From Pumilibacter muris (GTDB lineage: Bacteria > Bacillota > Clostridia > Christensenellales > Pumilibacteraceae), in NCBI RefSeq assembly GCF_943193045.1, contig NZ_CALPCN010000002.1, forward strand, positions 186,001-250,000: 64,000 bases of DNA. Direction: 5' to 3'. Made by a program: the position numbers and the translations under genes. Positions 16,788 through 33,824 of this stretch are shown in pieces (the first letter of the stretch is position 1; each line of letters begins with the position of its first letter). The notes under the pieces were generated by a model. The model did not search any database and had not been told where the DNA came from. It was given only the letters and a program-made list of their open reading frames with translations.

Positions 16788-18599
16788 TTAAAACGCGGCT
16801 CGGTTTTTCGGCGTTACAACGGCTACGCGGTCGTTGCCGTCGAGGTCGCGCACAATTTCAACGTTTGCGTCGTCGAAAATCTTTTTTACGCTTTCCGCTT
16901 GATTATATCCTATCTCCATAAGCAAAACGCCGTTTTCGTTCAAATGTTCGCGGTATTCGCTCTGTATTCTGCGGTAAAACTCAAGCCCGTCGGCGCCGCC
17001 GTCGAGCGCGGCAAGGGGCTGCGCCTTAACTTCGGGCGAAAGCGATTCTATTACCCCGCTTTCTATATAAGGCGGATTGCTTACTATAAAATCGAACTTA
17101 CCGTCAACCGACGAAAACATATCGCTTTGCAAAACTACCGCTTCGGTATTTTTAAGGTTCTCTCTCGCAACAGCCAAAGCCGCATCGGATATGTCGGACG
17201 CGGTTACTTTCGCACGCGTCGCTTTTGCTACCGCGAGAGCAATACAGCCGCTTCCCGTGCATAAGTCGAGCACTTCGGCTTCACGCTCTCCTATTAGGCG
17301 AATAGCTTCGCTTACAAGCGTTTCGGTTTCCATGCGCGGAACGAGCACGTTTTCGTTCACTTTAATTTTGTGCCCGAAAAATTCGCTTTCACCCAAAACG
17401 TAATCGAGCGGTGTTCCCGCAATTCGCTTTTCCAAAAAACCAACCGCCGTTTTATATTGCTTTTCGTTAAGCGTTTTCATGCCCGCAAGTTCGTTACGAC
17501 GCACCTGCGCCACGCTACACAAAATCCAATCCGTTTCGGCTTGCGCTTCGCGTTCGTCAAGTCCGTAAACTTTGAGCGCCGTGTTAAACTCTTTTTTCAC
17601 GTCGGGCATATTGTGTTCGTAAAACTTTACGGGCTTAATCGACGGGTCGGCGTCCATATTGAGCACAGCCAAAAAGCTCTTTAAAGCAACCTCCGCCATT
17701 TCGTCTTGCGGCGGATATGTGGTTAGCCGTTGTAGCGCAAGGCCGGGCGCGCGCAAAATGTTTGTGAACCAATTATCGGGAAGACACGCAAGCCCGCGCA
17801 AAAGCTCGTAGCTTAGCCCCGCCACAAGCGGCAACATTGCAAGCCGCACGACCGTAAGAATCCAACGGTTGTCGCTTAGGCTTCCGTTTCCGAACGGAAC
17901 GTAACTTAGCGCCCACCGCGCGAGCGCGAACACGAGAATGGAAACAAGCATAACGAAGAACAAAAACGTGGTGCCGCAACGGTTGTGCCGCGTGGAGCAC
18001 TTTTGCACGTTCTCAACAGTCATGTCGTACCCTTTTTCGTAGCAATTTATAGTGCGGTGCTCCGCTCCGTGATACATAAACGTTCTGCGAATATCTTTCA
18101 TTCTCGACACAATTAAAAGGTATAGCACGAAAATAAGTATTCTCAGCACGCCCTCGAATAAGCTTTCAAGCAGAATAAGCGTTTTGGGGCTGACGTAGTT
18201 ATACAGTTTTATAACCTTGCCGAGCAATAAATCGTTTAAAAAACCCGGCAACAATATAAACAGCCCCACCGCCAAAATCACGCCGAGAATAACGGCGAAC
18301 GCCATCCAACCTTTTCCGGGAGTATCTTCGTCGGGCGTGGAAACTTCGGCGCTGCGCATAAGAGTGCTAACGCCGCCAACAAGACTTTGCACAAAACTCA
18401 CCACGCCCCTAAGCACGGGAACTTTATGATACCATTTTCTTCCGCCGAGTCGCGTTGTTTCGAGCGCAATCGAGCCGTCGGGCACTCGCACCGCCATAGC
18501 CATGCTCGTGCGTCCGCGCATCATAACTCCTTCCATAAGCGCCTGCCCGCCTATCATGGCGCGCTTCGGCTTTTCGGTTTTAACTTTCTTTTCCGACAC
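16788..18599 (-). CDS. prmC: Fusion: DUF1385 membrane protein + release factor glutamine methyltransferase PrmC
   Basis: A 603-residue protein joining two normally separate neighbours. Residues 1-about 310 are DUF1385: IGGQALMEGVMMRGR at the N-terminus, hydrophobic segments near 100-120, 135-165, 210-230 and 245-265, and MYHGAEHRTINCYEKG. Residues about 320-603 are PrmC: an N-terminal helical domain with DYVLGESEFFG, SAM motif VLDLCTGSGCIALAVA and catalytic SNPPYIES near 509. PrmC methylates the GGQ glutamine of release factors; prfA follows. GTG start after AAGGA. No stop or frame break separates the halves, so the methylase would be membrane-tethered. Confidence 0.93.
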   Translation of the reverse strand: MSEKKVKTEKPKRAMIGGQALMEGVMMRGRTSMAMAVRVPDGSIALETTRLGGRKWYHKVPVLRGVVSFVQSLVGGVSTLMRSAEVSTPDEDTPGKGWMAFAVILGVILAVGLFILLPGFLNDLLLGKVIKLYNYVSPKTLILLESLFEGVLRILIFVLYLLIVSRMKDIRRTFMYHGAEHRTINCYEKGYDMTVENVQKCSTRHNRCGTTFLFFVMLVSILVFALARWALSYVPFGNGSLSDNRWILTVVRLAMLPLVAGLSYELLRGLACLPDNWFTNILRAPGLALQRLTTYPPQDEMAEVALKSFLAVLNMDADPSIKPVKFYEHNMPDVKKEFNTALKVYGLDEREAQAETDWILCSVAQVRRNELAGMKTLNEKQYKTAVGFLEKRIAGTPLDYVLGESEFFGHKIKVNENVLVPRMETETLVSEAIRLIGEREAEVLDLCTGSGCIALAVAKATRAKVTASDISDAALAVARENLKNTEAVVLQSDMFSSVDGKFDFIVSNPPYIESGVIESLSPEVKAQPLAALDGGADGLEFYRRIQSEYREHLNENGVLLMEIGYNQAESVKKIFDDANVEIVRDLDGNDRVAVVTPKNRAAF

Positions 18600-18690: not shown

Positions 18691-18897
18691 CTACTTTTTG
18701 TTGTAGCGTTTGTTGAACTTATCAATACGTCCGCCCGTGTCAACGTGCTTTTGCTTGCCCGTGTAGAAAGGGTGGCACTGACTGCAAACGTCCACCTTAA
18801 CCACGTCGCCTTTTTTGGTGGAACCCGTTACGAATTTCGCACCGCAAGCGCATTCCATAGTAACCTCGTGGTAGTCGGGATGTAAATTCTCTTTCAT
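18691..18897 (-). CDS. rpmE: Ribosomal protein bL31 (zinc type)
   Basis: Large-subunit protein at the subunit interface. [19 protein letters not shown] and [12 protein letters not shown] provide the zinc-binding cysteines of the Zn-containing form. The start at 18897 is set by the family N-terminus and an AAGGAG site; 68 residues. It has its own promoter (19026-19055) and a leader of about 120 bases, and ends in a terminator, so it is monocistronic. Zn-type L31 is often zinc-regulated, but no Zur box was recognised. Confidence 0.97.
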
Positions 18898-19109: not shown

Positions 19110-19508
19110 TCAATAACAGTCCACAACGTTAATCAACAATTCGAACTCCCCTCTTAAATAATCATCAGCCTCTTTAATTTTCACTGCATGTTTAATGAGG
19201 TGTTTGCCGGGTTCTCGCAACGAAACGCGCTCAAAAACAGAACCAAGATTCCCACTGAGCACCTTTCTTCCGTCTCTGTAATAGAATTTTCCCGTAAAGC
19301 TCAAATATTCGTCACGGCAGCCGTATGTTAAACATAAAACGACATTTCTACCTTCTTCAACCATTTCAATTTCATTACCAAGACTGTCGGTTACCACAAG
19401 GCGCAACAATAAATTTTCTTTATAGCATGCCGTAGCTGAAAACACCGACAAAAAAAGCACAACAGCAAGCGCAAATCTTATAATCGATTTTTTCATTCTC
19501 GCCAACAT
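19110..19508 (-). CDS. Small secreted or lipoprotein with Ig-like domain (family A, copy 2)
   Basis: Not a recognised named family. An N-terminal signal (KKSIIRFALAVVLFLSVFSA) ends at TAC, a weak lipobox. The mature part of about 100 residues looks like one beta-sandwich domain: LVVTDSLGNEIEMVEEG, YLSFTGKFYY, VSLREPGKHLIKH, FELLINVVD. The same skeleton is in the first gene of this operon (24627-25064), so they are paralogues. GGAGGAG lies just before the ATG, which overlaps the preceding stop by one base. Last gene of the five-gene operon. Function unknown. Confidence 0.75.
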   Translation of the reverse strand: MLARMKKSIIRFALAVVLFLSVFSATACYKENLLLRLVVTDSLGNEIEMVEEGRNVVLCLTYGCRDEYLSFTGKFYYRDGRKVLSGNLGSVFERVSLREPGKHLIKHAVKIKEADDYLRGEFELLINVVDCY

Positions 19509-20023
19509 TACTTCTCCTCCTTAAACGATAAAACGTCGTCCTTTTCATTCCTCTTGTTTTTCATCATATCAACAATCAACAGCACGACAATAACGGTGGC
19601 GGCACATCCTATTGCCATTAAAATTATCGAAACCGCTATATCGCTCGCATTATCCACATCGATATAATTTATTTTATAGCAAACGTCGGTTGACACCTTC
19701 CCCGTACTATCGTTGATATCGTAATGCGGCAAAATAACGCGCACAGTTTCGTTGCTTTTTGCATAAACCGTTCCACGAAATACTTTGTCTCCATCTTTTT
19801 TTGCATAATAGCCTAATAATATTTTACATTTTTTTATATCGTACTTACATTCTGAGCGAACGCTGACGGCAACGTGCATTTCGAGCGCTTCGTCATCGTA
19901 GTCACTTTCAAGCTTAACGGAAATTTTGGGAGTGAGCGCCTGCACAAGCAATATTATTCCGAATACCAACGCAAGCGCGGCAACACATGCCGAAATAACC
20001 GAATAAATTATCTTCTTTTTCAT
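19508..20023 (-). CDS. Two-pass membrane protein of unknown function (family C, copy 2)
   Basis: 171 residues. A membrane segment at about 7-28 is followed by an extracytoplasmic domain of about 100 residues, a second membrane segment at about 130-152 and a basic cytoplasmic tail. It matches the next upstream gene closely in layout and text: LVQALTPKISVKLESDYDDE here against FVQAVSPEVEVEIYDIYEE there, KYDIKKCKILLGYY against KYKIKHCEMKIGFY, and ASDIAVSIILMAIGCA against GLDIAVSVILMILACA. The pair is a tandem duplication. Start follows AGGAA; 5 bases separate it from the upstream stop. Confidence 0.75.
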   Translation of the reverse strand: MKKKIIYSVISACVAALALVFGIILLVQALTPKISVKLESDYDDEALEMHVAVSVRSECKYDIKKCKILLGYYAKKDGDKVFRGTVYAKSNETVRVILPHYDINDSTGKVSTDVCYKINYIDVDNASDIAVSIILMAIGCAATVIVVLLIVDMMKNKRNEKDDVLSFKEEK

Positions 20024-20028
20024 ATTTA

Positions 20029-20553
20029 CTAGTTCCTATCGGGCGGCAAAGATTTCTTATTCTCTTTTTTTCGCTCTTTCGCAAGCCGCACCGACGCAAA
20101 TATTAAAGCGACTATCGAAGCGCAAGCCAAAATCATAAGAATAACCGACACCGCAATATCCAAACCGTTGTCAACTTTAACGTTCCACATTTTTAAAACT
20201 TCTATTTTTTCCACTTCGTGATACGGAATAGTTGAAGAGGTAAAGTCCTTTTTAACGTATACGGTTTTCTCTACGCCTTCGTTCACCACTTCTCCCAATT
20301 CTTTTACTTTTTTACCGTAATGATAATAAAAGCCTATTTTCATTTCGCAATGTTTTATTTTATACTTTCCGGGAGAACGCACCCAAATTTCCAACCTAAG
20401 TTCCTCTCCCGACTCTTCGTAAATATCGTATATTTCAACTTCTACCTCAGGCGACACAGCCTGAACAAAAAGGATGGTGCCGAGCGTTCCCGTAAGTGCC
20501 GCAAGTATAGCGGCAATAACCACAATTACAATCAAGTTTTTAACATTTTTCAT
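20029..20553 (-). CDS. Two-pass membrane protein of unknown function (family C, copy 1)
   Basis: 174 residues, paralogue of the gene that follows it. N-terminal membrane segment at about 8-32, extracytoplasmic domain (about 33-125) with SPGKYKIKHCEMKIGFYYH, C-terminal membrane segment at about 131-155, then a Lys/Glu-rich tail. It starts 5 bases after the stop of the 1343-residue repeat protein, with AAGGGG overlapping that stop, so translation is probably coupled. The membrane pair could anchor or export the large protein (inference only). No homology to a characterised family recognised. Confidence 0.75.
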   Translation of the reverse strand: MKNVKNLIVIVVIAAILAALTGTLGTILFVQAVSPEVEVEIYDIYEESGEELRLEIWVRSPGKYKIKHCEMKIGFYYHYGKKVKELGEVVNEGVEKTVYVKKDFTSSTIPYHEVEKIEVLKMWNVKVDNGLDIAVSVILMILACASIVALIFASVRLAKERKKENKKSLPPDRN

Positions 20554-20558
20554 AAACC

Positions 20559-23500
20559 TTACCCCTTGGCGTATAATATAAGTATTTTTAAATTACTGTT
20601 ATACCAATCGTCATTTCCAACGCCGCTCGCCCCGTATCGCACGCACAAAACGTTGGTGTTACTAATATCGTCTATTGAAATTTTCGCCAAATAATTATAT
20701 TCTTGCTTCCATGTGTCTCTACCGCCGCCTCCGTGTTCTAATTGCACGTTCCATAGTTCTTTATCCCCTGTTCCCGTTCCGTTATAAAGCATTATATACT
20801 GATAGCCATCATATTCCTCCCATATAGTGATTGTAATATATACATATAAATATTTTACACCCTCTTTTTTCAGCTGTTCATAATTGTTTTGCGTGTAAAT
20901 ATTTATCACATCATATTCTTGTTTAAACCGTCCTTTATCATCGATTTTATATTCGGCAGTCCTTGTGTAAGTTGAATAATCTTTCCATTTAGCATATAAC
21001 GTTATATTTCCTTGTTGTTGCGCGGATATTGCTGTTATGCGGTTTGTTAAAGCTTTATCGGAACACCATCCTTCGAATATATAAGTCATTATTTTGGGCA
21101 AATCCAAAATCACGTCGTTTAAATTTAACCCTACCCCCATTATATAATATGTAGGTTTATTACTTTTTCCGATAAAATTAGCCTTAGCGCCGTCTACAAC
21201 AATATTTTCGTAGTATATATTACCGATTCTTTTCCACTGCGCCGTAAAGGTAATATTCGAAGTAACCGTAAACTTTGATTCGAAGTTGCTCTCGTAATTT
21301 GCATTCCAAGCGCCCCAATTACCTATATAACCGCTTCGCAAACTTAAAGGCAACGTGATAATGTCTCCGTGTTTTGCCGTAAGCGGAGCACATTCGGAAC
21401 CGCCGTTAGCGTTAAACGTAACAGTATAAGTGCAAATTCTTAATTTTGCATAAAATGTTTTATTTCCAACCGAACCGACGGATATGGGAGCGGCTCTAAC
21501 CGTTGCGGCAGAATTTGTATACCACCCCTCAACCATATAGTAATTACTCGAAATAGTTGGGAATGCAACCGCGTCTTCAACGGTGTATGTTGTTTTCTTA
21601 TTCGTAAACGAATAATTGCTTGACACAACCGTTTCTCCTGTTGTTGTTTTGGGAATTGTTATATACGTTATGGAATATACTATTGCGCTATACCGCAATT
21701 CAAGCCAAAGCGAGCCATTTCCTTCTTTATTTTCGGTTATATCCGGCATTGTGGTATATGTAAATTTTATTCCCGTAATTGTATCGTACCAACCGTCTAC
21801 CGTATAGCCTTGCTTAGAACAAGAAACAAACGGCAAAACGTCTCCGTAATGAACTTTAAGTTCTTTTTTCTCTCCGAAATAATCGTCAAGATAGAGCGTG
21901 TAAACCTCTTTTTCATATTGAGGATACATAAGCGCTTTGCCGCTTGCGTCCGTGTATGCCCTTGTTGCATTACTGTCGGCAATTTCGGTGCCTTCCTTAT
22001 CAACCGTGAGGGTCTTATAAACATATCCTTTTTTATAAATTGCTTTAAAAGCTTCGTCTTTTGTGTCTTCGTCGATTAAAAGTTGCGCAAGCAAGCCGTT
22101 GGGAGTATAGTCCCAATATTTATCACCCTTTTTAACCATAAAAGTCCAACTCGAACCGCTTAGCTGAAACTCGAAGTATTCGCGGCTCCATTTGGCTTTC
22201 AACTCAATAACGTAAGGGTAAGAATACGGAACAAGCGAATTGCCTTCGGCGTCGGTTATTTTGGTTTCGCCGTAATACCAACCGTCGAATTCAAAACTTT
22301 CGGCAGTGGCAACGGGTAACGTGAATTGTTTCCCGTATTCCACTTCTCTGCTTCCCGAAGCGATTACAACGTTCTTATAGTCCGCTTCTTCGCTATTTCC
22401 GTTTAATATAAGAACATAGCTTTTTTGCGCCCAACACGCATAAAAAGTTTTATCGCCCGCACTGCCAACGGGCAAACGTTCTATTGCGTTGCCCGAAAAA
22501 TCTTCGCTTTCGAACCATCCCGCGAAAATGAAATCTTGCTTTTCGGGTATAGGCAAAACTATTCCGTCGTGAATTGTATACATTAGGTCGGGAATCTGCG
22601 AACCGCCGTATGTTTCGAAACGCACCGAATAAACAACCGGTATTTCCTGAGCATAGAGCGTAAGGCGCGAGCCGCCCGTTTTTGCAATATTTTGCGCGGT
22701 TATAGCTTCGCCATCATAGTTTTCATTTAAAAACCAACCCGCGAAACAATATCCGTTTTGTTGCTCGGGTTCGGGGAGTTCTAAACAAACGTCGTTTCTA
22801 ATAATAACGGGCTCTACGGCGTTTACGGAAATAAAGTTCACTTCTATTTCGGAACTCATTTGCAACGTTCCGCCGCCGTACACAACCGCAATCATTTCAT
22901 TCGAATCCGATTTCTCAAAGCGCAATTCGCCCGTCGCATCGCCTACAATTTGAAAATATGCGTCCGCCGCTTCTCCCGGTTGCAAGCTGCACACAACTAT
23001 TCTCGCGTCTTGTTCGGATGCGAGCAAGTTGTAAAAACGTTTTTTGTCGGGCAGTTTAAAAACGCTGTATTCGCTTGAAAGAACGTTTTCTCCTATTTGC
23101 AATTCGGGCGCAACTATTTTAGAATGCAATGCCGTGCGTAAAACTTGACTGTCGCTTAAATTGCTTATTTCTATATAATAAACTTTATCTTGTTCAAGTT
23201 TATACACACCCGCATTACTTTTTATTTCTTTTGTGCCGCTGTAATTGTTCACGTCGTAAGCTTGATACAATTTTATTCCGCAACCGTCGTCGGCAAAAAT
23301 TTTGTAATCTGCGGCAAGCTCCGTTCTGAAATTAAACACCTGCTTCCCCGACGGCAAAATATAAACTTGGGATTCGTTATAGTAATTGTGCATATATTCT
23401 TGTTCGTAAACATTATGAAATACGGGAATATGAACAGGCTCGTCTAACAGTTTAGCACCCGAAGAATCAACCAAATCGAATTTCGCATCTAAAAACAACT

Positions 23501-24590
23501 GCGACGGCACGTCTTGCTCGGACAATAAAATTTTGCTCTCGATATAATCGTTGATATATAAATCTATCCCGTCGGGTTTAAAAGTAAAAACCTTAGTAAG
23601 CCTATCTCTCGTAGGGTCGGCAATTTGTTCGCTTTTTTTAACGTTATCCAAAATATTGTCTTCGTTATTCGCCGAAACTTCGGTTGTGGAAACAGTATCA
23701 ATACTCAACAAAGTCTCTAAAAAGTCATATACTAATTTCAACTGTGCCAAACCGGGCACTTGGTCCGCAATTTTACCGAATACGAACGACACCGCAAAGT
23801 TCACCAACGGCATAACATCAATTTCGGATTTTATGTAAGAGCCGTTATAATTTAACCGAATTTGTTTAAAAATTGCGCCGTTATCGGTACACTTCGAGTA
23901 ATCCGAATCGAATTCGTTTAAATCGTGCAAATTTTGCACCGTGCCGCTAATCACGGGATTGAGAATATATCCGTTATTATTTAAAGTAGCTAAGGCATAA
24001 TGCTGCCCGTCCAATTCCGACATACAGTAATCGGCGGATAACACGGTTAGCTTTAAAGTAGCCATATCTGTTTCGGTTTTAAAAACGCTGTTGTAGTCAA
24101 TCAGTATTACAGAAGCGACATATTCATTTTTATGCAAAGCTTCTTCCGAGCAACCGCCGCCGCAAAAGATACATTTTGTGTTAGCGTAAAAAAAATATTC
24201 TTTCCCGATATATTTATATTTTCCCGTTTTATAAAAAATCTCAAGCGGCAAAATCTTTGATAAAATATTTCCGTGCTCCGCATTATTGTTAATATCGTAA
24301 TACCCCGCTTTTACGCGCGCAATATAATCGCTTAGGGTAATATTTTCTCCCTCTATAATATCGTTGCTTGTAAGTTCCGCACAAAGTTGTTGAGTTTGAG
24401 CGCTATTAAAATCAAAGTTTTTTGTTGCGGTTACGGCACGCGGTTGAATTTTTTGCGTCCTCAACATTTGCGGAGTCTGTTCCGCACTTGCAGTTGACTT
24501 AGCCCCTAATGCAAGGCAACCTACGGCGCAAATAAAACAAAACGCCGCCACAGCAAAAACTGCAGTCAACTTTTTCCCTTTTGTTTTCAT
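20559..24590 (-). CDS. Large secreted protein with Listeria-Bacteroides (InlB B-type) repeats
   Basis: 1343 residues with a Sec signal (hydrophobic stretch about 9-30, then STASAEQ). Residues about 40-580 are unrecognised; TKCIFCGGGCSEE near 135 is cysteine-rich. From about 590 to 1200 come seven or eight degenerate InlB-type repeats, marked by AGWF, AGWF, DGWYY, DGWYD, EGWYT, GNWGAW and EGWCS, each with KTFYA, TLYAKW or FTAQW ends. A final domain of about 130 residues rich in aromatics (YLYVYITITIWEEYDGYQYI) ends the protein. No LPXTG or other anchor is seen. GGAGGG precedes the ATG. Likely cell-surface or adhesin-like; ligand unknown. Confidence 0.8.
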   Translation of the reverse strand: MKTKGKKLTAVFAVAAFCFICAVGCLALGAKSTASAEQTPQMLRTQKIQPRAVTATKNFDFNSAQTQQLCAELTSNDIIEGENITLSDYIARVKAGYYDINNNAEHGNILSKILPLEIFYKTGKYKYIGKEYFFYANTKCIFCGGGCSEEALHKNEYVASVILIDYNSVFKTETDMATLKLTVLSADYCMSELDGQHYALATLNNNGYILNPVISGTVQNLHDLNEFDSDYSKCTDNGAIFKQIRLNYNGSYIKSEIDVMPLVNFAVSFVFGKIADQVPGLAQLKLVYDFLETLLSIDTVSTTEVSANNEDNILDNVKKSEQIADPTRDRLTKVFTFKPDGIDLYINDYIESKILLSEQDVPSQLFLDAKFDLVDSSGAKLLDEPVHIPVFHNVYEQEYMHNYYNESQVYILPSGKQVFNFRTELAADYKIFADDGCGIKLYQAYDVNNYSGTKEIKSNAGVYKLEQDKVYYIEISNLSDSQVLRTALHSKIVAPELQIGENVLSSEYSVFKLPDKKRFYNLLASEQDARIVVCSLQPGEAADAYFQIVGDATGELRFEKSDSNEMIAVVYGGGTLQMSSEIEVNFISVNAVEPVIIRNDVCLELPEPEQQNGYCFAGWFLNENYDGEAITAQNIAKTGGSRLTLYAQEIPVVYSVRFETYGGSQIPDLMYTIHDGIVLPIPEKQDFIFAGWFESEDFSGNAIERLPVGSAGDKTFYACWAQKSYVLILNGNSEEADYKNVVIASGSREVEYGKQFTLPVATAESFEFDGWYYGETKITDAEGNSLVPYSYPYVIELKAKWSREYFEFQLSGSSWTFMVKKGDKYWDYTPNGLLAQLLIDEDTKDEAFKAIYKKGYVYKTLTVDKEGTEIADSNATRAYTDASGKALMYPQYEKEVYTLYLDDYFGEKKELKVHYGDVLPFVSCSKQGYTVDGWYDTITGIKFTYTTMPDITENKEGNGSLWLELRYSAIVYSITYITIPKTTTGETVVSSNYSFTNKKTTYTVEDAVAFPTISSNYYMVEGWYTNSAATVRAAPISVGSVGNKTFYAKLRICTYTVTFNANGGSECAPLTAKHGDIITLPLSLRSGYIGNWGAWNANYESNFESKFTVTSNITFTAQWKRIGNIYYENIVVDGAKANFIGKSNKPTYYIMGVGLNLNDVILDLPKIMTYIFEGWCSDKALTNRITAISAQQQGNITLYAKWKDYSTYTRTAEYKIDDKGRFKQEYDVINIYTQNNYEQLKKEGVKYLYVYITITIWEEYDGYQYIMLYNGTGTGDKELWNVQLEHGGGGRDTWKQEYNYLAKISIDDISNTNVLCVRYGASGVGNDDWYNSNLKILILYAKG

Positions 24591-24626
24591 CTTCCCATCC
24601 CTCCTATGTTTAATATATTTTAAAAC

Positions 24627-25064
24627 CTAATCCTCAACAACCCCGTCAACAGTATTGTTTTCAACAACAACTACCTTAAATACAAACTCGATACCACCAC
24701 CAACCTTTAAAACATATTTTTGACTCATAGTATATTCGCCCGGCTTATTTAAATCAACTGTGTCGAACATTTTCATTGCAGGGCTCGCTTCCGTCTTTTC
24801 ATTGTGATGTTCAACAATCAGTTGCCCTGTAAAATTTAATTCCCGATTTTGACGCGGATACTCGAGCCTTAGCTCCTTATATTCTCCGAACGCATATATG
24901 CGATAGCAGTTACCGAAATTGTCGTAAAATTTAACATACGGATGCCCATATCCTTTAAGTTTGCGATTACATTCGGAAAAAGCAACCAACGACACGCACA
25001 AAATAATAGCCGTCAACAATGTAGCAGTAAATATCGTAACAAATTTCGAAACGCCTTTTTTCAT
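24627..25064 (-). CDS. Small secreted protein with Ig-like domain (family A, copy 1)
   Basis: 145 residues from the ATG at 25064, chosen because GGAGG lies 5-6 bases upstream. A hydrophobic N-terminus (KFVTIFTATLLTAIILCVSL) is a signal or anchor; SEC follows but is a poor lipobox. The remaining domain (VKFYDNFGNCYRIYAFG, LNFTGQLIVEHH, VDLNKPGEYTMSQKYVLKV, FKVVVVE) has the shape of single Ig-like bacterial domains and aligns with the last gene of the operon. First gene after the operon promoter. Function unknown. Confidence 0.75.
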   Translation of the reverse strand: MKKGVSKFVTIFTATLLTAIILCVSLVAFSECNRKLKGYGHPYVKFYDNFGNCYRIYAFGEYKELRLEYPRQNRELNFTGQLIVEHHNEKTEASPAMKMFDTVDLNKPGEYTMSQKYVLKVGGGIEFVFKVVVVENNTVDGVVED

Positions 25065-25284: not shown

Positions 25285-26631
25285 CTATTTTTTAAGCACC
25301 ATGTCTTTAATATCGGATACGGCTACTTTTAATTTGGGGTTTGTTTGCAACTTTTCCGCAACCTTATCGCGGGCGTGCATAATTGTGGTATGGTCGCGTC
25401 CGCCGAACATGGCGCCTATTGTGGCAAGCGGCAACGCGAGCATATCTGTAATCAAATATATGCAAATTTGGCGGGGTTCAACAATTTCTTTATTTTTCTT
25501 TTTGCCCACAAGTTCGTCTTTGCTAACGTTAAAATAACGGCATACGCAATCGGTTATAATATCCGCCGAAACGCTCTCTTCCGTTTTGTCGCTGTAATCT
25601 TTAAGCGCCTCTTGCACAAGTTCTATGCTCGGCGCGGAATTATACAGCCTGCTCAAAAAGATTACTTTGTTCAGTAGGCTTTCCATGTCGCGAATATTGC
25701 TCGACATTTTTTCTGCCATAAACGAGAGAACTTCGAAAGGAATATTGTATTTTTCTATTTGCGCTTTTTTTTGCAAAATGGCAATTCGGGTTTCTATGTC
25801 GGGCGGCTGAACGTCGGCTATAAGCCCCCACTCGAACCGCGAGCGCAAACGTTCTTCGAGCGGCGAAATCTCTTTGGGCGGGCGGTCGCTCGTAAGAATA
25901 ATTTGTTTGCTGTTTTGGTAAAGGTCGTTAAACGTGTGGAACATTTCTTCCTGCGTGCCCGCTTTGTCGGCGATAAACTGAATATCGTCTATCATGAGTA
26001 CGTCTACACTGCGGTATTTATCGCGGAAGTTGGTGCTTTTCCCCTTTGTTGTGCGAATGGATTCTATGAACTCGTTCACAAATTTTTCGCTGGACGCATA
26101 AAGCACTTTTAAATGCGGATGACTGAGCCTTACGCTGTTGCCGATTGCGTGCATAATGTGCGTTTTGCCAAGTCCCGCCCCGCCGTAAATAAACAACGGA
26201 TTATACCGCGAACCCGGTTCGTCGGCAACCGCGCGCGCCGCCGCATACATAAATTGATTGGATTTTCCCACAACGAAATTTTCAAAATTGTATTTGGGAT
26301 TTATAACGTTCGCTTCCACTTTGGGAAGAGGCTCTTCTTCCTCTATAACATAAGTTTCTTCTTTGGTGCGGTAAGTGTCGGCGTCGCTCGGACCTATTAT
26401 TAAAAGCCCCGTCATGAGCGGATTCGCTTCTTTCATAGAACTCGTAAGCTGTTCCGAAAATTTGTCGGAAACAAACTGTCGGCTTCCTTCGGTGGGCACC
26501 ATAAGAACAAGCCGACCGTCTATTATACTAATCGGCTCTATGGTTTTAATCCACACGTCGAAATTTACTGCGCTCACCTCTATTTCGAGGTTGGTGAGCA
26601 TTTTTTCCCATAGCTCTTTTGCGTTGTTCAT
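25285..26631 (-). CDS. dnaA: Chromosomal replication initiator DnaA
   Basis: AAA+ ATPase that binds DnaA boxes and opens oriC. Domain I spans about 1-80; the motor has Walker A YGGAGLGKTHIMHAIGN, Walker B VLMIDDIQF, sensor TSDRPPKEI and the Arg-finger region LEERLRSRFEWGL. The DNA-binding helix-turn-helix ends with the DnaA signature GAMFGGRDHTTIMHARDKV. The ATG at 26631 (448 residues) is preferred over an upstream TTG because GGAG lies 8 bases before it. dnaN, recF and gyrB are not adjacent; neighbours are a TetR gene and gltX. Confidence 0.98.
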   Translation of the reverse strand: MNNAKELWEKMLTNLEIEVSAVNFDVWIKTIEPISIIDGRLVLMVPTEGSRQFVSDKFSEQLTSSMKEANPLMTGLLIIGPSDADTYRTKEETYVIEEEEPLPKVEANVINPKYNFENFVVGKSNQFMYAAARAVADEPGSRYNPLFIYGGAGLGKTHIMHAIGNSVRLSHPHLKVLYASSEKFVNEFIESIRTTKGKSTNFRDKYRSVDVLMIDDIQFIADKAGTQEEMFHTFNDLYQNSKQIILTSDRPPKEISPLEERLRSRFEWGLIADVQPPDIETRIAILQKKAQIEKYNIPFEVLSFMAEKMSSNIRDMESLLNKVIFLSRLYNSAPSIELVQEALKDYSDKTEESVSADIITDCVCRYFNVSKDELVGKKKNKEIVEPRQICIYLITDMLALPLATIGAMFGGRDHTTIMHARDKVAEKLQTNPKLKVAVSDIKDMVLKK

Positions 26632-26678
26632 TTTGCGCTCCGACAAATCAAGTTTTATATTGCTTTGCTTTTTATTTT

Positions 26679-28742: not shown

Positions 28743-28839
28743 AATTTCGAGCTTAACCTCCCGCATAACGAAACAAATTTTGCAAAACGTAAAAAAGCAC
28801 GCCTTTGCATAAGCGGCTTATTTTGCCGCCGTAACTATT

Positions 28840-28868
28840 ATTATAATAAAATTTGCGAAATAAAGCAA
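28840..28868 (-). promoter_or_regulatory. Likely promoter of gltX
   Basis: TATAAT (28840-28845) with TTGCTT (28863-28868) 17 bases upstream; the -35 matches only in TTG, so this is a moderate call. Confidence 0.5.
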
Positions 28869-28888
28869 CAAAAACAACGCAAAAGAGA

Positions 28889-28925
28889 AAAAACCGACGC
28901 TGAATTATTAGCGCCGGTTTTTTTG
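28889..28925 (-). terminator. Terminator upstream of gltX
   Basis: Stem AAACCGACGCT / AGCGCCGGTTT (28891-28901 and 28910-28920) with one mismatch and an 8-base loop, flanked by A/T runs. It ends transcription coming from the decayed region at 28.9-29.2 kb. Confidence 0.8.
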
Positions 28926-28933
28926 ATTGTTTA

Positions 28934-29020
28934 TTAAATTTTAGTTACATACACCTGACCATCACTACCGTTAGCTCCGTTTTTACCGTCCCAGCTTTTA
29001 AAGCTTCGAGACCTTTTCAT
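28934..29020 (-). pseudogene. 28-codon collagen-like fragment, probable gene remnant or microprotein
   Basis: Short frame with a strong GGAGGG site before its ATG, encoding a basic N-terminus and then DGKNGANGSDGQVYV, which has the Gly-x-y rhythm of bacterial collagen-like surface proteins. It stops after 28 codons, just before a terminator. I read it as the stump of a collagen-like secreted protein, because a neighbouring fragment also looks decayed. It could instead be a real small peptide. Confidence 0.45.
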
Positions 29021-29044
29021 AACACCAACCCTCCCTTTATTTTT

Positions 29045-29205
29045 TTATTCAACCACCTCTACGGTAATTGTTTTTCTTATAGAATTATATTTTTCTAAAT
29101 TCGGGTCAACTTTGTAATGTGCTATGGCAAATCTTACAATATATACACCTACTTTTATCGGTCCCGCAATAGAAATGCGTTCGGTTTTGCAAATTAGGAA
29201 ACAAA
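29045..29205 (-). pseudogene. C-terminal remnant of a family A-like secreted Ig-like protein
   Basis: A frame with no start codon or ribosome site that reads ISIAGPIKVGVYIVRFAIAH and later KTITVEVVE before its stop. It resembles the end of the small Ig-like proteins at 24627-25064 (VDLNKPGEYTMSQKYVLKV ... FKVVVVE) and 19110-19508 in strand rhythm. Upstream the frame runs into the plus-strand fragment at 29225, so the 5' part is gone. Relationship is inferred from a short, loose match. Confidence 0.4.
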
Positions 29206-29224
29206 TATTTAGGAGGGATAAAGA

Positions 29225-29305
29225 ATGAAAAAGGCAATAACATGTTTGGGTGCTTCCATATTGTTTTTGTTTTCTTTCGTAGTTGTTTACAAATCATCAC
29301 AATAG
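29225..29305 (+). CDS. 26-residue hydrophobic peptide, signal-peptide stump or small membrane protein
   Basis: ATG preceded by AGGAGGG, encoding a Lys-Lys start and one hydrophobic segment (ITCLGASILFLFSFVVVY) before a stop. It looks like a secretion signal without its mature protein, so a truncated gene is the simplest reading. A functional small membrane peptide remains possible. It lies between the decayed minus-strand fragments and the M20 peptidase. Confidence 0.4.
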   Translation: MKKAITCLGASILFLFSFVVVYKSSQ

Positions 29306-29364
29306 CAGATATTACTTTTTTGCTCAAGAGAAAAAACTGACGCTTTCGCATGTTTTTACTCTCC

Positions 29365-31274: not shown

Positions 31275-33824
31275 TTATTGTTTCTCTATATTCCCGTCAG
31301 TGCAATAAACGGTATACTTTTTCGAATCAAAGCCGAAACCTATACCAGCATCCCATCCTTCCTCTTTTTTTATGGCATTCCATTCGTCTTGTGTCCCGTC
31401 GAAATTTATGCTACTTAAACACAAACAACCGCTAAACACGTTATTTTCAATATTTTGTACCTGCTTAGAAATACTGACACTCGTAAGCTTGGTACAATTA
31501 CTAAAAGCATATTCCTCAACACATGTAACAGACACAGGTAGTGTAATTGTAACTAAATTACTGCAGCCCGAAAACATGTGTTTTGAGATTGTTGTCAAGT
31601 TATCGGAAATACTAACGTTTTTTAAATTCCCGCAATTGCTAAAAGCCTCTTCGCCCACCGTTATCACACTGTTAGGAATAACAACGTTCTCAATACTACT
31701 GCATCCGCTAAAAGTTCTGTAACCTATACTTGTTAATTTCTGAGGCAAAACAACGTCTGACAAATTGTCGCAATTCTCAAACGCAAAATCGCCTATACTG
31801 ACAACGGAATTAGGTATTACGATTTTTGTAAGACTATAACAATTGCTAAACACGCTATGCGAAATACTTTCTATGCTATCGGGCAACGTAATATCCGTTA
31901 AACTTTTACAATACATAAACAGACTGCTTTCAAGATTTGTTACACCGTCGGGAATGTTAATGTTTTTAAGCTTATTGCAATATTGAAACGCGCCCCATCC
32001 TATACTCGTTATATTGTCGGGTAAAGTAATGCTTTCCAAATTAGAACAGCCGTCAAAAGCAAGATATTTTATAGCCGTAACGCTTCCGTCAGACGGTATT
32101 ATGCTGTTTTTGCAACCGATAATCAACGTTTTACTGTCCGTTTCGATAATACAATTCCCGTTACTGTGATAGTTCGCATTTCCCTTTTCAACGGCAATGC
32201 TTTCTAATCCATAACAACCACCAAATACATTATCGCCAAGCTTAGTTACGCTCTTCGGAATAAAAATAGTTTTTAAACTGACGCAATCCTCAAATGCGTT
32301 AGTAGCAATGCCAACAATATTATTAGGAAAAGAAATAGTTTCAAGGCTTTTACAATCTAAAAATGCGAAAGTTTCGATATATGATAATTCGTGAGGCAGC
32401 GTAATGTCAGTTAAACTATCACAACCGCTAAAAGTGCTTTCGCCGATACTTTTAATTGAGTTCGGAAGTTTAACGCTTACTAAACCGGAGCAATCGCTAA
32501 ATGCGCTTTTGCCGATATGTACCACCGTATCCGGCAATATAATATTTTTAATATTCTTACATCTAAAAAATGCGTAATTCGCTATATTTGTCCCATCCGT
32601 AACTAAAACCGTTTCTAACGATGACGGCACATAATTGTCGTAATAATAATCAGGCGCTCCGAAGATATAACCTAAATAACTTGCGCCGTTTGTTCCTACG
32701 CTATCTCTGCCGACAAACGGCAAAACAATTCTTGTAAGGCTTTGACAACTTTCGAAAGCGCCCTGCCCTATGTTAACAATACTGTTAGGCAGTTCAACAT
32801 TCGTTAGACTATGGCAACCTTTAAACGCACTACTACACATATATTTGGTATCGTTATGCACATTGCATTCCGTCGTACTTGAGAACACATTTATAAGCCA
32901 CAAATACGGATTTGCTTCATTTCCCAAATATAACTCTTTCCCGTAATTAGCATATTGCAAAGACCCGCAGTTATAAAATGCATAATTGCCGATATAAGTA
33001 ACACTATCCGGTATTTGAATATTGGTTAAACTATTACAGTTCTCGAAAGCGTTACTTTGAATAGTTTTTAAATTTTGAGGCAACGTTATTTTCTCAATCT
33101 CCGTGCAATTATAAAATGCCTTTTCGCTTATCGCCGCATCGTTCGTAATAACAACCGTTTTTAGCGATGCAGGCACATAGTCTTTATTAAATAAATAAGA
33201 CTTTGCTCCGAAGATATATCCAAAAAAGTCCGTAAACTCATCGTTGCCATTTCCCATACCTATGAACGGCAATTCTATTTTTACCAAATTACTACAACCG
33301 TTGAAAGCGCGCCGTCCTATACTTTCAACCGAAGACGGAATCGTTATACTTTGCAAACTACTACAACCGCCGAACGCATCCTCGCCTATGCTCTTAATCG
33401 TATTAGGAAGTTCAATACTTTTTATCCAAACGCAACCTATAAAAGCGTTAGCTCCTATTGCGGTTACGGGTTTACCTTTATAAGTCGATGAAACCGCTAT
33501 TGCATTAGAATCTTCAATACCTATGCCCGACACTGTATAACCATCTTTATTTAAAGTATAGCTAATCTTGCTATCCGAAAAACCGCATAACGTGCATATA
33601 TTGTTTTTAAAAGTATGTTCCGCTTTATCCTTTATTGCCGTTTCATGCTCGCATGTAGGCTCATGCCAATGATATTCATTATCATTGCTCCAAGTTTCCG
33701 AATATGTATGAGTATGCGACGGTTCTATATTTGTATTAACCATGCCTTTGCAAGCCACGAAAAAAGCGGCGCATAACAAAACGCATATAAGCAAAATAAG
33801 CTTGATATGTCTTTCTCTTTTCAT
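31275..33824 (-). CDS. BspA-like leucine-rich-repeat surface lipoprotein
   Basis: 849 residues. A lipoprotein signal ends at FFVAC (C25). A short Cys/His-rich module (CEHETAIKDKAEHTFKNN, ICTLCGF) follows, then about 25 BspA-type LRR_5 units of the form IGxxAFxxCxxLxxIxLPxS across the rest. Two units carry longer GYIFGA...VPxSLxTV inserts, and a plain segment (SIAVEKGNANYHSNGNC) breaks the run near residue 545. Such proteins are exposed on gut bacteria and bind host or neighbour surfaces; the target here is unknown. It has its own promoter and terminator. Confidence 0.92.
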   Translation of the reverse strand: MKRERHIKLILLICVLLCAAFFVACKGMVNTNIEPSHTHTYSETWSNDNEYHWHEPTCEHETAIKDKAEHTFKNNICTLCGFSDSKISYTLNKDGYTVSGIGIEDSNAIAVSSTYKGKPVTAIGANAFIGCVWIKSIELPNTIKSIGEDAFGGCSSLQSITIPSSVESIGRRAFNGCSNLVKIELPFIGMGNGNDEFTDFFGYIFGAKSYLFNKDYVPASLKTVVITNDAAISEKAFYNCTEIEKITLPQNLKTIQSNAFENCNSLTNIQIPDSVTYIGNYAFYNCGSLQYANYGKELYLGNEANPYLWLINVFSSTTECNVHNDTKYMCSSAFKGCHSLTNVELPNSIVNIGQGAFESCQSLTRIVLPFVGRDSVGTNGASYLGYIFGAPDYYYDNYVPSSLETVLVTDGTNIANYAFFRCKNIKNIILPDTVVHIGKSAFSDCSGLVSVKLPNSIKSIGESTFSGCDSLTDITLPHELSYIETFAFLDCKSLETISFPNNIVGIATNAFEDCVSLKTIFIPKSVTKLGDNVFGGCYGLESIAVEKGNANYHSNGNCIIETDSKTLIIGCKNSIIPSDGSVTAIKYLAFDGCSNLESITLPDNITSIGWGAFQYCNKLKNINIPDGVTNLESSLFMYCKSLTDITLPDSIESISHSVFSNCYSLTKIVIPNSVVSIGDFAFENCDNLSDVVLPQKLTSIGYRTFSGCSSIENVVIPNSVITVGEEAFSNCGNLKNVSISDNLTTISKHMFSGCSNLVTITLPVSVTCVEEYAFSNCTKLTSVSISKQVQNIENNVFSGCLCLSSINFDGTQDEWNAIKKEEGWDAGIGFGFDSKKYTVYCTDGNIEKQ

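Follow-up and report, generated by a model that had tools for sequence, protein, structure and literature searches.

The question raised by this locus is whether five tightly joined genes for exported and membrane proteins belong to one purpose-built system. They lie on the minus strand in the order A1-B-C1-C2-A2, between dnaA (25285-26646) and rpmE (18691-18897), within the 64,000-nucleotide stretch of Pumilibacter muris DNA analysed here (the window). A first-pass annotation had read them as a five-gene A-B-C-C-A complex made of paralogue pairs, and the five open reading frames are all present as it described, with successive gaps of 36, 5 and 5 bases and then a 1-base overlap between C2 and A2. 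The single TTGACT/TATAAT promoter that it placed ahead of the operon was found as well. In the direction of reading, the features are:

25280-25251, minus strand: terminator-like hairpin at the dnaA end; the promoter starts beyond it
25203-25176, minus strand: promoter TTGACT-16-TATAAT with an extended -10 TG, 11/12 positions
25064-24627, minus strand: A1, ORF of 145 aa
24590-20559, minus strand: B, ORF of 1343 aa
20553-20029, minus strand: C1, ORF of 174 aa
20023-19508, minus strand: C2, ORF of 171 aa
19508-19110, minus strand: A2, ORF of 132 aa
19055-19026: rpmE promoter, separate from the five-gene promoter and the downstream bound of the unit

The five genes are one transcription unit, extending from the dnaA terminator-like hairpin to the rpmE promoter; a terminator-like site was looked for between A2 and the rpmE promoter and was not found there. 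This A+T-rich island has a G+C content of 38-40%, compared with about 49-50% in its surroundings, and lies within a block, dnaA-rpmE-(DUF1385-prmC)-prfA, that is conserved in much of the family. In the same block, a DUF1385-type membrane protein and a PrmC-type (release-factor methyltransferase) domain are fused in-frame immediately ahead of prfA (16788-18599), and this fused ORF is present across the family. Regarding the promoter, exact matches to its motif TTTTTGRAAAAGGTATTG occur at three A/B promoters only in the seven genomes scanned. Sites with one mismatch are found upstream of ordinary genes (LacI-type regulators, transporter lipoproteins); hence the motif represents a general strong-promoter context, and its interpretation as a private A/B regulon was rejected.

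Comparison with related genomes, denoted here by G numbers, does not support the purpose-built five-gene complex. In the sister species (G004, DnaA 98% identical) B is alone in the dnaA-rpmE interval; it is 67-68% identical to B of the window and is directly preceded by a conserved copy of the five-gene promoter sequence. Because B stands alone at the same site in the sister species, a fixed five-gene system was rejected. C1-C2-A2, located downstream of B here, are absent there although the C-terminus of the sister B is homologous, and C1 and C2 have no counterpart in the whole G004 genome. C1, C2 and A2 are thus a local addition, and the full set of five is peculiar to this genome. Indeed, C1 and C2 are two-pass paralogues as had been claimed (33% identity, E 9e-27), C1 consisting of a membrane segment, an ectodomain and a second membrane segment and C2 likewise displaying a membrane stretch at each end, but among 74 family genomes they have one credible relative, isolated in G067 beside unrelated genes. 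Furthermore, the dnaA-rpmE interval is empty in G005, G019, G014 and G028, contains a 140-aa lipoprotein in G001 and a leucine-rich-repeat protein in G012. These varied contents indicate that the interval takes up surface genes. Elsewhere in the window (31275-33824) an A+T-rich gene encodes an 849-aa leucine-rich-repeat (BspA-like) lipoprotein, to which the G012 protein is related.

B was the only one of the five proteins said to belong to a nameable family, and this holds, given that the four small proteins have no Pfam or NCBIfam match above cut-off. Seven stretches of B match Pfam PF09479 (Flg_new, the InlB B-repeat; E 2e-39), TIGR02543 for InlB B-repeats is matched as well, and no known family besides these repeats was found in B with Pfam and NCBIfam. 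From its N-terminus, B is composed of:

about residues 1-36: signal peptide, one N-terminal hydrophobic stretch, cleavage ASA/EQ (site by inspection)
residues 58-399; 23394..24419, minus strand: N-terminal domain, of an unnamed family with members across the order
residues 400-599; 22794..23393, minus strand: beta-rich region, no Pfam family, its profile recurring at least 2 times in several relatives
residues 600-1204; 20979..22793, minus strand: InlB-type (Flg_new) repeats in seven stretches, the putative stalk
residues 1205-1343; 20562..20978, minus strand: C-terminal tip module, also found in InlB-repeat lipoproteins and in MACPF proteins within the order

Neither an LPxTG motif nor a C-terminal membrane segment is present in B or in any of the 21 B-family proteins examined, most of which have an AxA-type signal peptide; one B protein of G072 (G072b) has a lipobox of its own. 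No adhesive domain was found in B with Pfam, and no leucine-rich-repeat family was detected with Pfam or NCBIfam. The AF2 model of the N-terminal domain is weak (pLDDT 66). A leukocidin-like fold proposed for it by Foldseek (E 3e-4) was set aside, the superposition showing a TM of about 0.1, an rmsd of 20-30 A and a probability <0.3 on this weak model. In the same genome, filamentous-phage-like gene sets were observed (L177, L178 and L084; sequences C1, 46-57 kb, and C4, 150-178 kb); InlB repeats and a C-terminal membrane segment occur in their coat-like proteins, and two of the sets encode Zot-like ATPases (PHROGs 197).

The small protein preceding B, A1, is a 145-aa exported protein with one predicted beta-sandwich domain and a cysteine, Cys32, after its hydrophobic segment. 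A cysteine at this point is common to all eight aligned family members, and the lipobox of A1 is non-canonical (FSEC). Its AF2 model is an eight-stranded beta sandwich (pLDDT 76.5) whose best Foldseek neighbours are the surface-protein domains SlpX domain II, Rib and Big_3, all at E >= 0.01 and thus not significant; no Pfam family, Ig-like or other, was matched above cut-off. With an A-family profile built without A1 and A2, A1 scored 27.3 bits (E 6e-7 among 2,500 proteins) and A2 14.2 bits, whereas 400 shuffled versions of A1 and A2 reached at most 8.7 bits. A1 is hence homologous to the A proteins adjoining other B genes. A2, a 132-aa lipoprotein-like protein of a single domain, is a distant paralogue of A1, so that the pairing of the two small proteins claimed initially stands, with a weak similarity (25% over 73 residues, E 4e-4). 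No homology was found between A and the C ectodomains, and a short, isolated match of the A profile to poxvirus OPG185 was set aside. The A proteins retain either the cysteine after a hydrophobic segment or a plain membrane segment. Outside family f1, A-type proteins were recognised chiefly by where they lie, their size, an export signal and a beta-rich sequence, and profile-profile comparison links them weakly to the f1 group (hhalign probability 42%).

Separate searches were made with two profiles, one for the B N-terminal domain (A3) and one for the A family (A4). Besides the window, both gave matches in G004, where A' and B' lie at a second site, and in G002, G069 and G072. G002 contains A'', B'' and an A/B fusion protein, a single chain of 976 aa in which an A-type domain with a lipobox is joined to B-type beta domains. 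In G069, which belongs to another genus, about 33 bp separate the end of A from B, and in G072 the order is B, A, B; in these two genomes, both outside the profile-building set, the separate A and B profiles matched adjacent genes. A scan with a four-row B alignment found, by name, only G004 and G002. With a nine-sequence profile, the B N-domain family was found in 23 of the 396 genomes sampled in the order, distributed over 17 genera. At 12 of the 23 B loci with a readable upstream side, an A-type gene ends 4-48 bp before B (the window, G004', G002, G069, G072b, G283, G277, G158, G267, G236, G247 and G174), and in G277, G158 and G267 A genes are found in tandem. Other small lipoproteins lie upstream at three loci (four in tandem in G014, and G052 and G172), and at the remaining eight neither an A-type nor another small exported gene is present; these include the B of G004 at the dnaA-rpmE site, a genome in which A is present elsewhere. 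As a control, a small exported gene lies close upstream of 1 of ~12 InlB-repeat proteins of the P. muris genome that have no B domain. Hence A-B is a recurring undescribed pair, of which the five-gene locus contains one case, and the co-localisation anticipated by the first-pass annotation holds for A and B, which are neighbours in further genera and families, but not for the C-C-A part, whose sole credible C relative is the one alone in G067.

Two further observations concern these neighbourhoods. In G069 (L112:1191-12318) prophage head and holin genes immediately precede the A-B pair, a single case; cargo genes often occupy such a position. A phage origin of B was considered and rejected, as no relative of B was found in viral contigs. 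In the P. muris genome, an InlB-repeat protein with an HExxH-type motif (VHEFGHLLGLHD; L184:3596-5816, sequence C5) has a gene for a 157-aa lipoprotein 7 bp upstream.

The recurrence of the pair bears on a reading in which the dnaA-rpmE interval is a hot spot, permissive for unrelated A+T-rich surface genes that have a promoter in common and form no functional unit. The changing occupants of the interval, from none to a lipoprotein, a leucine-rich-repeat protein or B alone, favour it, as does the restriction of C1 and C2 to this genome. It is also consistent with the almost complete deletion of a second A-B operon next door, of which the following scar is left:

28767..29350, minus strand: scar of a second A-B operon between gltX and an M20 peptidase gene, ~3.7 kb from the cluster, beyond dnaA and gltX

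The scar contains the C-terminus of A' (29054-29194) and a remnant of B' in which the first 8 codons run straight into the last ~20, with the promoter/5' part inverted, and a near-intact A'-B' operon occupies the same position in G004, which indicates that A-B operons are gained and lost quickly in the genus. However, A-B adjacency is repeated in unrelated settings outside the genus and the family, a recurrence not expected from chance accumulation. We therefore consider the hot-spot reading rather unlikely for the locus as a whole, even though it could still hold for C1-C2-A2.

The divergence between B and its sister protein is mosaic. In the core (about residues 364-1043) synonymous divergence is 0.25-0.65, overlapping that of dnaA, prmC and gltX (0.26-0.60). 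From about residue 1044 onwards (20559..21461, minus strand, the last ~300 residues) identity falls from 85-90% to 32-49% and pS reaches up to 0.64-0.81, and synonymous differences are also raised in the first ~280 residues (0.56-0.71). Both divergent ends abut the extra genes, the 3' one adjoining C1-C2-A2. Faster protein evolution alone would not account for the raised synonymous change, although saturation limits this argument. Such a pattern is as expected if end segments had been exchanged by recombination.

The last ~140 residues of B correspond to an unnamed module (alignment A11) with no Pfam family of its own, which was found in 19 of the 396 genomes, in 11 genera. It ends the InlB-repeat lipoproteins L204-L210, L213 and L214 and the MACPF lipoprotein L202 (Pfam MACPF E 3e-10), lipoprotein status being assigned by inspection, within L202-L210, L213 and L214, to the proteins whose N-terminus is intact. 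Pairs of ORFs that look frame-split (MACPF and hydrolase-like) likewise terminate in it in G004 and G005. A putative ligand-binding role is suggested by its location at the distal end of stalks, and its presence on InlB-stalk lipoproteins and MACPF proteins alike suggests a common receptor. MACPF proteins ending in this module are encoded at L202:469-2097 and L081:282-1879; the G004 MACPF-tip gene is distributed over two reading frames, and the P. muris genome retains a remnant of the module beside the same ABC gene (C1:515723, C1 being here a sequence label).

A variable end followed by small membrane protein genes would also be seen if B were a polymorphic protein secreted against other bacteria, with an effector at its C-terminus, from which A, C1, C2 and A2 protect the producer. 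The conserved core with a C-terminal end divergent between sister species, the small membrane proteins directly after B, the occasional tandem A genes and the joining of the module to a MACPF domain are all in line with this possibility. On the other hand, sequence searches of B and its relatives revealed no toxin domain, the leukocidin matches of the N-domain are meaningless at such a TM, and the module forms the terminal part of many InlB-repeat lipoproteins, where a tip would typically be placed. Moreover, A sits upstream and not downstream of B, and the sister species has a homologous B C-terminus without such downstream genes. Toxin and immunity functions are thus an improbable explanation.

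The locus is probably a variable surface module of the adhesin type and not a fixed five-part machine. In the version that we favour, A and B form the core, A holding a fibrillar-adhesin-like B at the surface, and the tip end is exchangeable, with C1-C2-A2 as an add-on; we propose it tentatively, at a little under an even chance. B would be secreted via signal peptidase I with no anchor of its own, and A, the small membrane-tethered beta-sandwich protein made immediately ahead of it, would retain it at the cell surface, most likely through contact with the N-terminal part of B. The seven InlB repeats would form the stalk and the C-terminal tip would bind the ligand. The tip end may be swapped by recombination, arriving here with C1, C2 and A2, which probably support or protect this version of B at the membrane. 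The simplest reading of these sequences is that A would supply in trans the anchor missing from B, because B has none, A has a cysteine or a membrane segment and a natural A/B fusion exists. The initial suggestion that a small membrane partner anchors the large protein fits this wider evidence, the likely partner being A and not the C pair. The gene order, the recurring A-B pairs, the missing anchor of B, the shared tip module and the mosaic divergence are observed in the sequences, and from them we infer physical binding for A and B, adhesion for the assembly and an accessory function for C1, C2 and A2. Several observations weigh against this version: the eight B loci with no small exported gene upstream, the weak profile link of A proteins outside f1, the non-canonical lipobox of A1, the G072b lipobox, the poor model of the B N-domain and the absence of a known adhesive domain in B.

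A could instead be a helper for secretion or folding of B, or part of a glycan-capture complex resembling a surface lipoprotein pair. It is translated first and is membrane-tethered, and similar beta-sandwich lipoproteins are found in glycan-uptake loci, Foldseek pointing weakly to BT2262 and to the BT2261-2264 SusCD complex; yet a transporter, enzyme or sensor beside the A-B pair is absent in most loci, which makes such a role for A distinctly improbable.

Returning to the anchoring of B by A, the idea may be extended to an undescribed two-gene system, widespread in one gut-type Clostridia order, in which A docks an anchorless B whose tip is swapped together with matching membrane genes, the same tip targeting MACPF pore-forming proteins. 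In this full form we regard it as unlikely. If A docks B, a large uncultured gut-type group would have a means of retaining giant surface proteins that themselves lack sortase, S-layer or lipid anchors. In that case names and a testable function would also be available for three families absent from Pfam, namely the A family, the tip module and the N-terminal domain of B.

Among known systems, fibrillar adhesin-like proteins are similar in that B is exported and large, with repeated stalk domains and an unannotated N-terminal region, and Flg_new was treated as a stalk domain in the study of these proteins (PMC9210967). B differs from them in having no cell-surface anchor, in being paired with a small membrane-tethered protein and in its unusual module, which is C-terminal and common to MACPF proteins. 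With the Listeria internalins (InlB), the InlB B-repeats (PF09479) are the sole common feature, as the leucine-rich-repeat domain and the GW anchor were not detected in B. Polymorphic toxin-immunity loci have a conserved N-terminal part, a variable C-terminal end and small genes after it. B likewise has a conserved part and a variable C-terminal end with small genes following, but it contains no toxin domain, its C-terminal module is a recurring tip domain and its conserved partner gene lies upstream. In Bacillus subtilis, TapA is a small accessory protein that is encoded in the same operon as a secreted surface polymer, TasA, and tethers it. The A-B pair, compared by description, resembles this arrangement in that the gene of a small protein shares an operon with that of a large secreted surface protein, although B is a single giant modular chain and not a fibre subunit.
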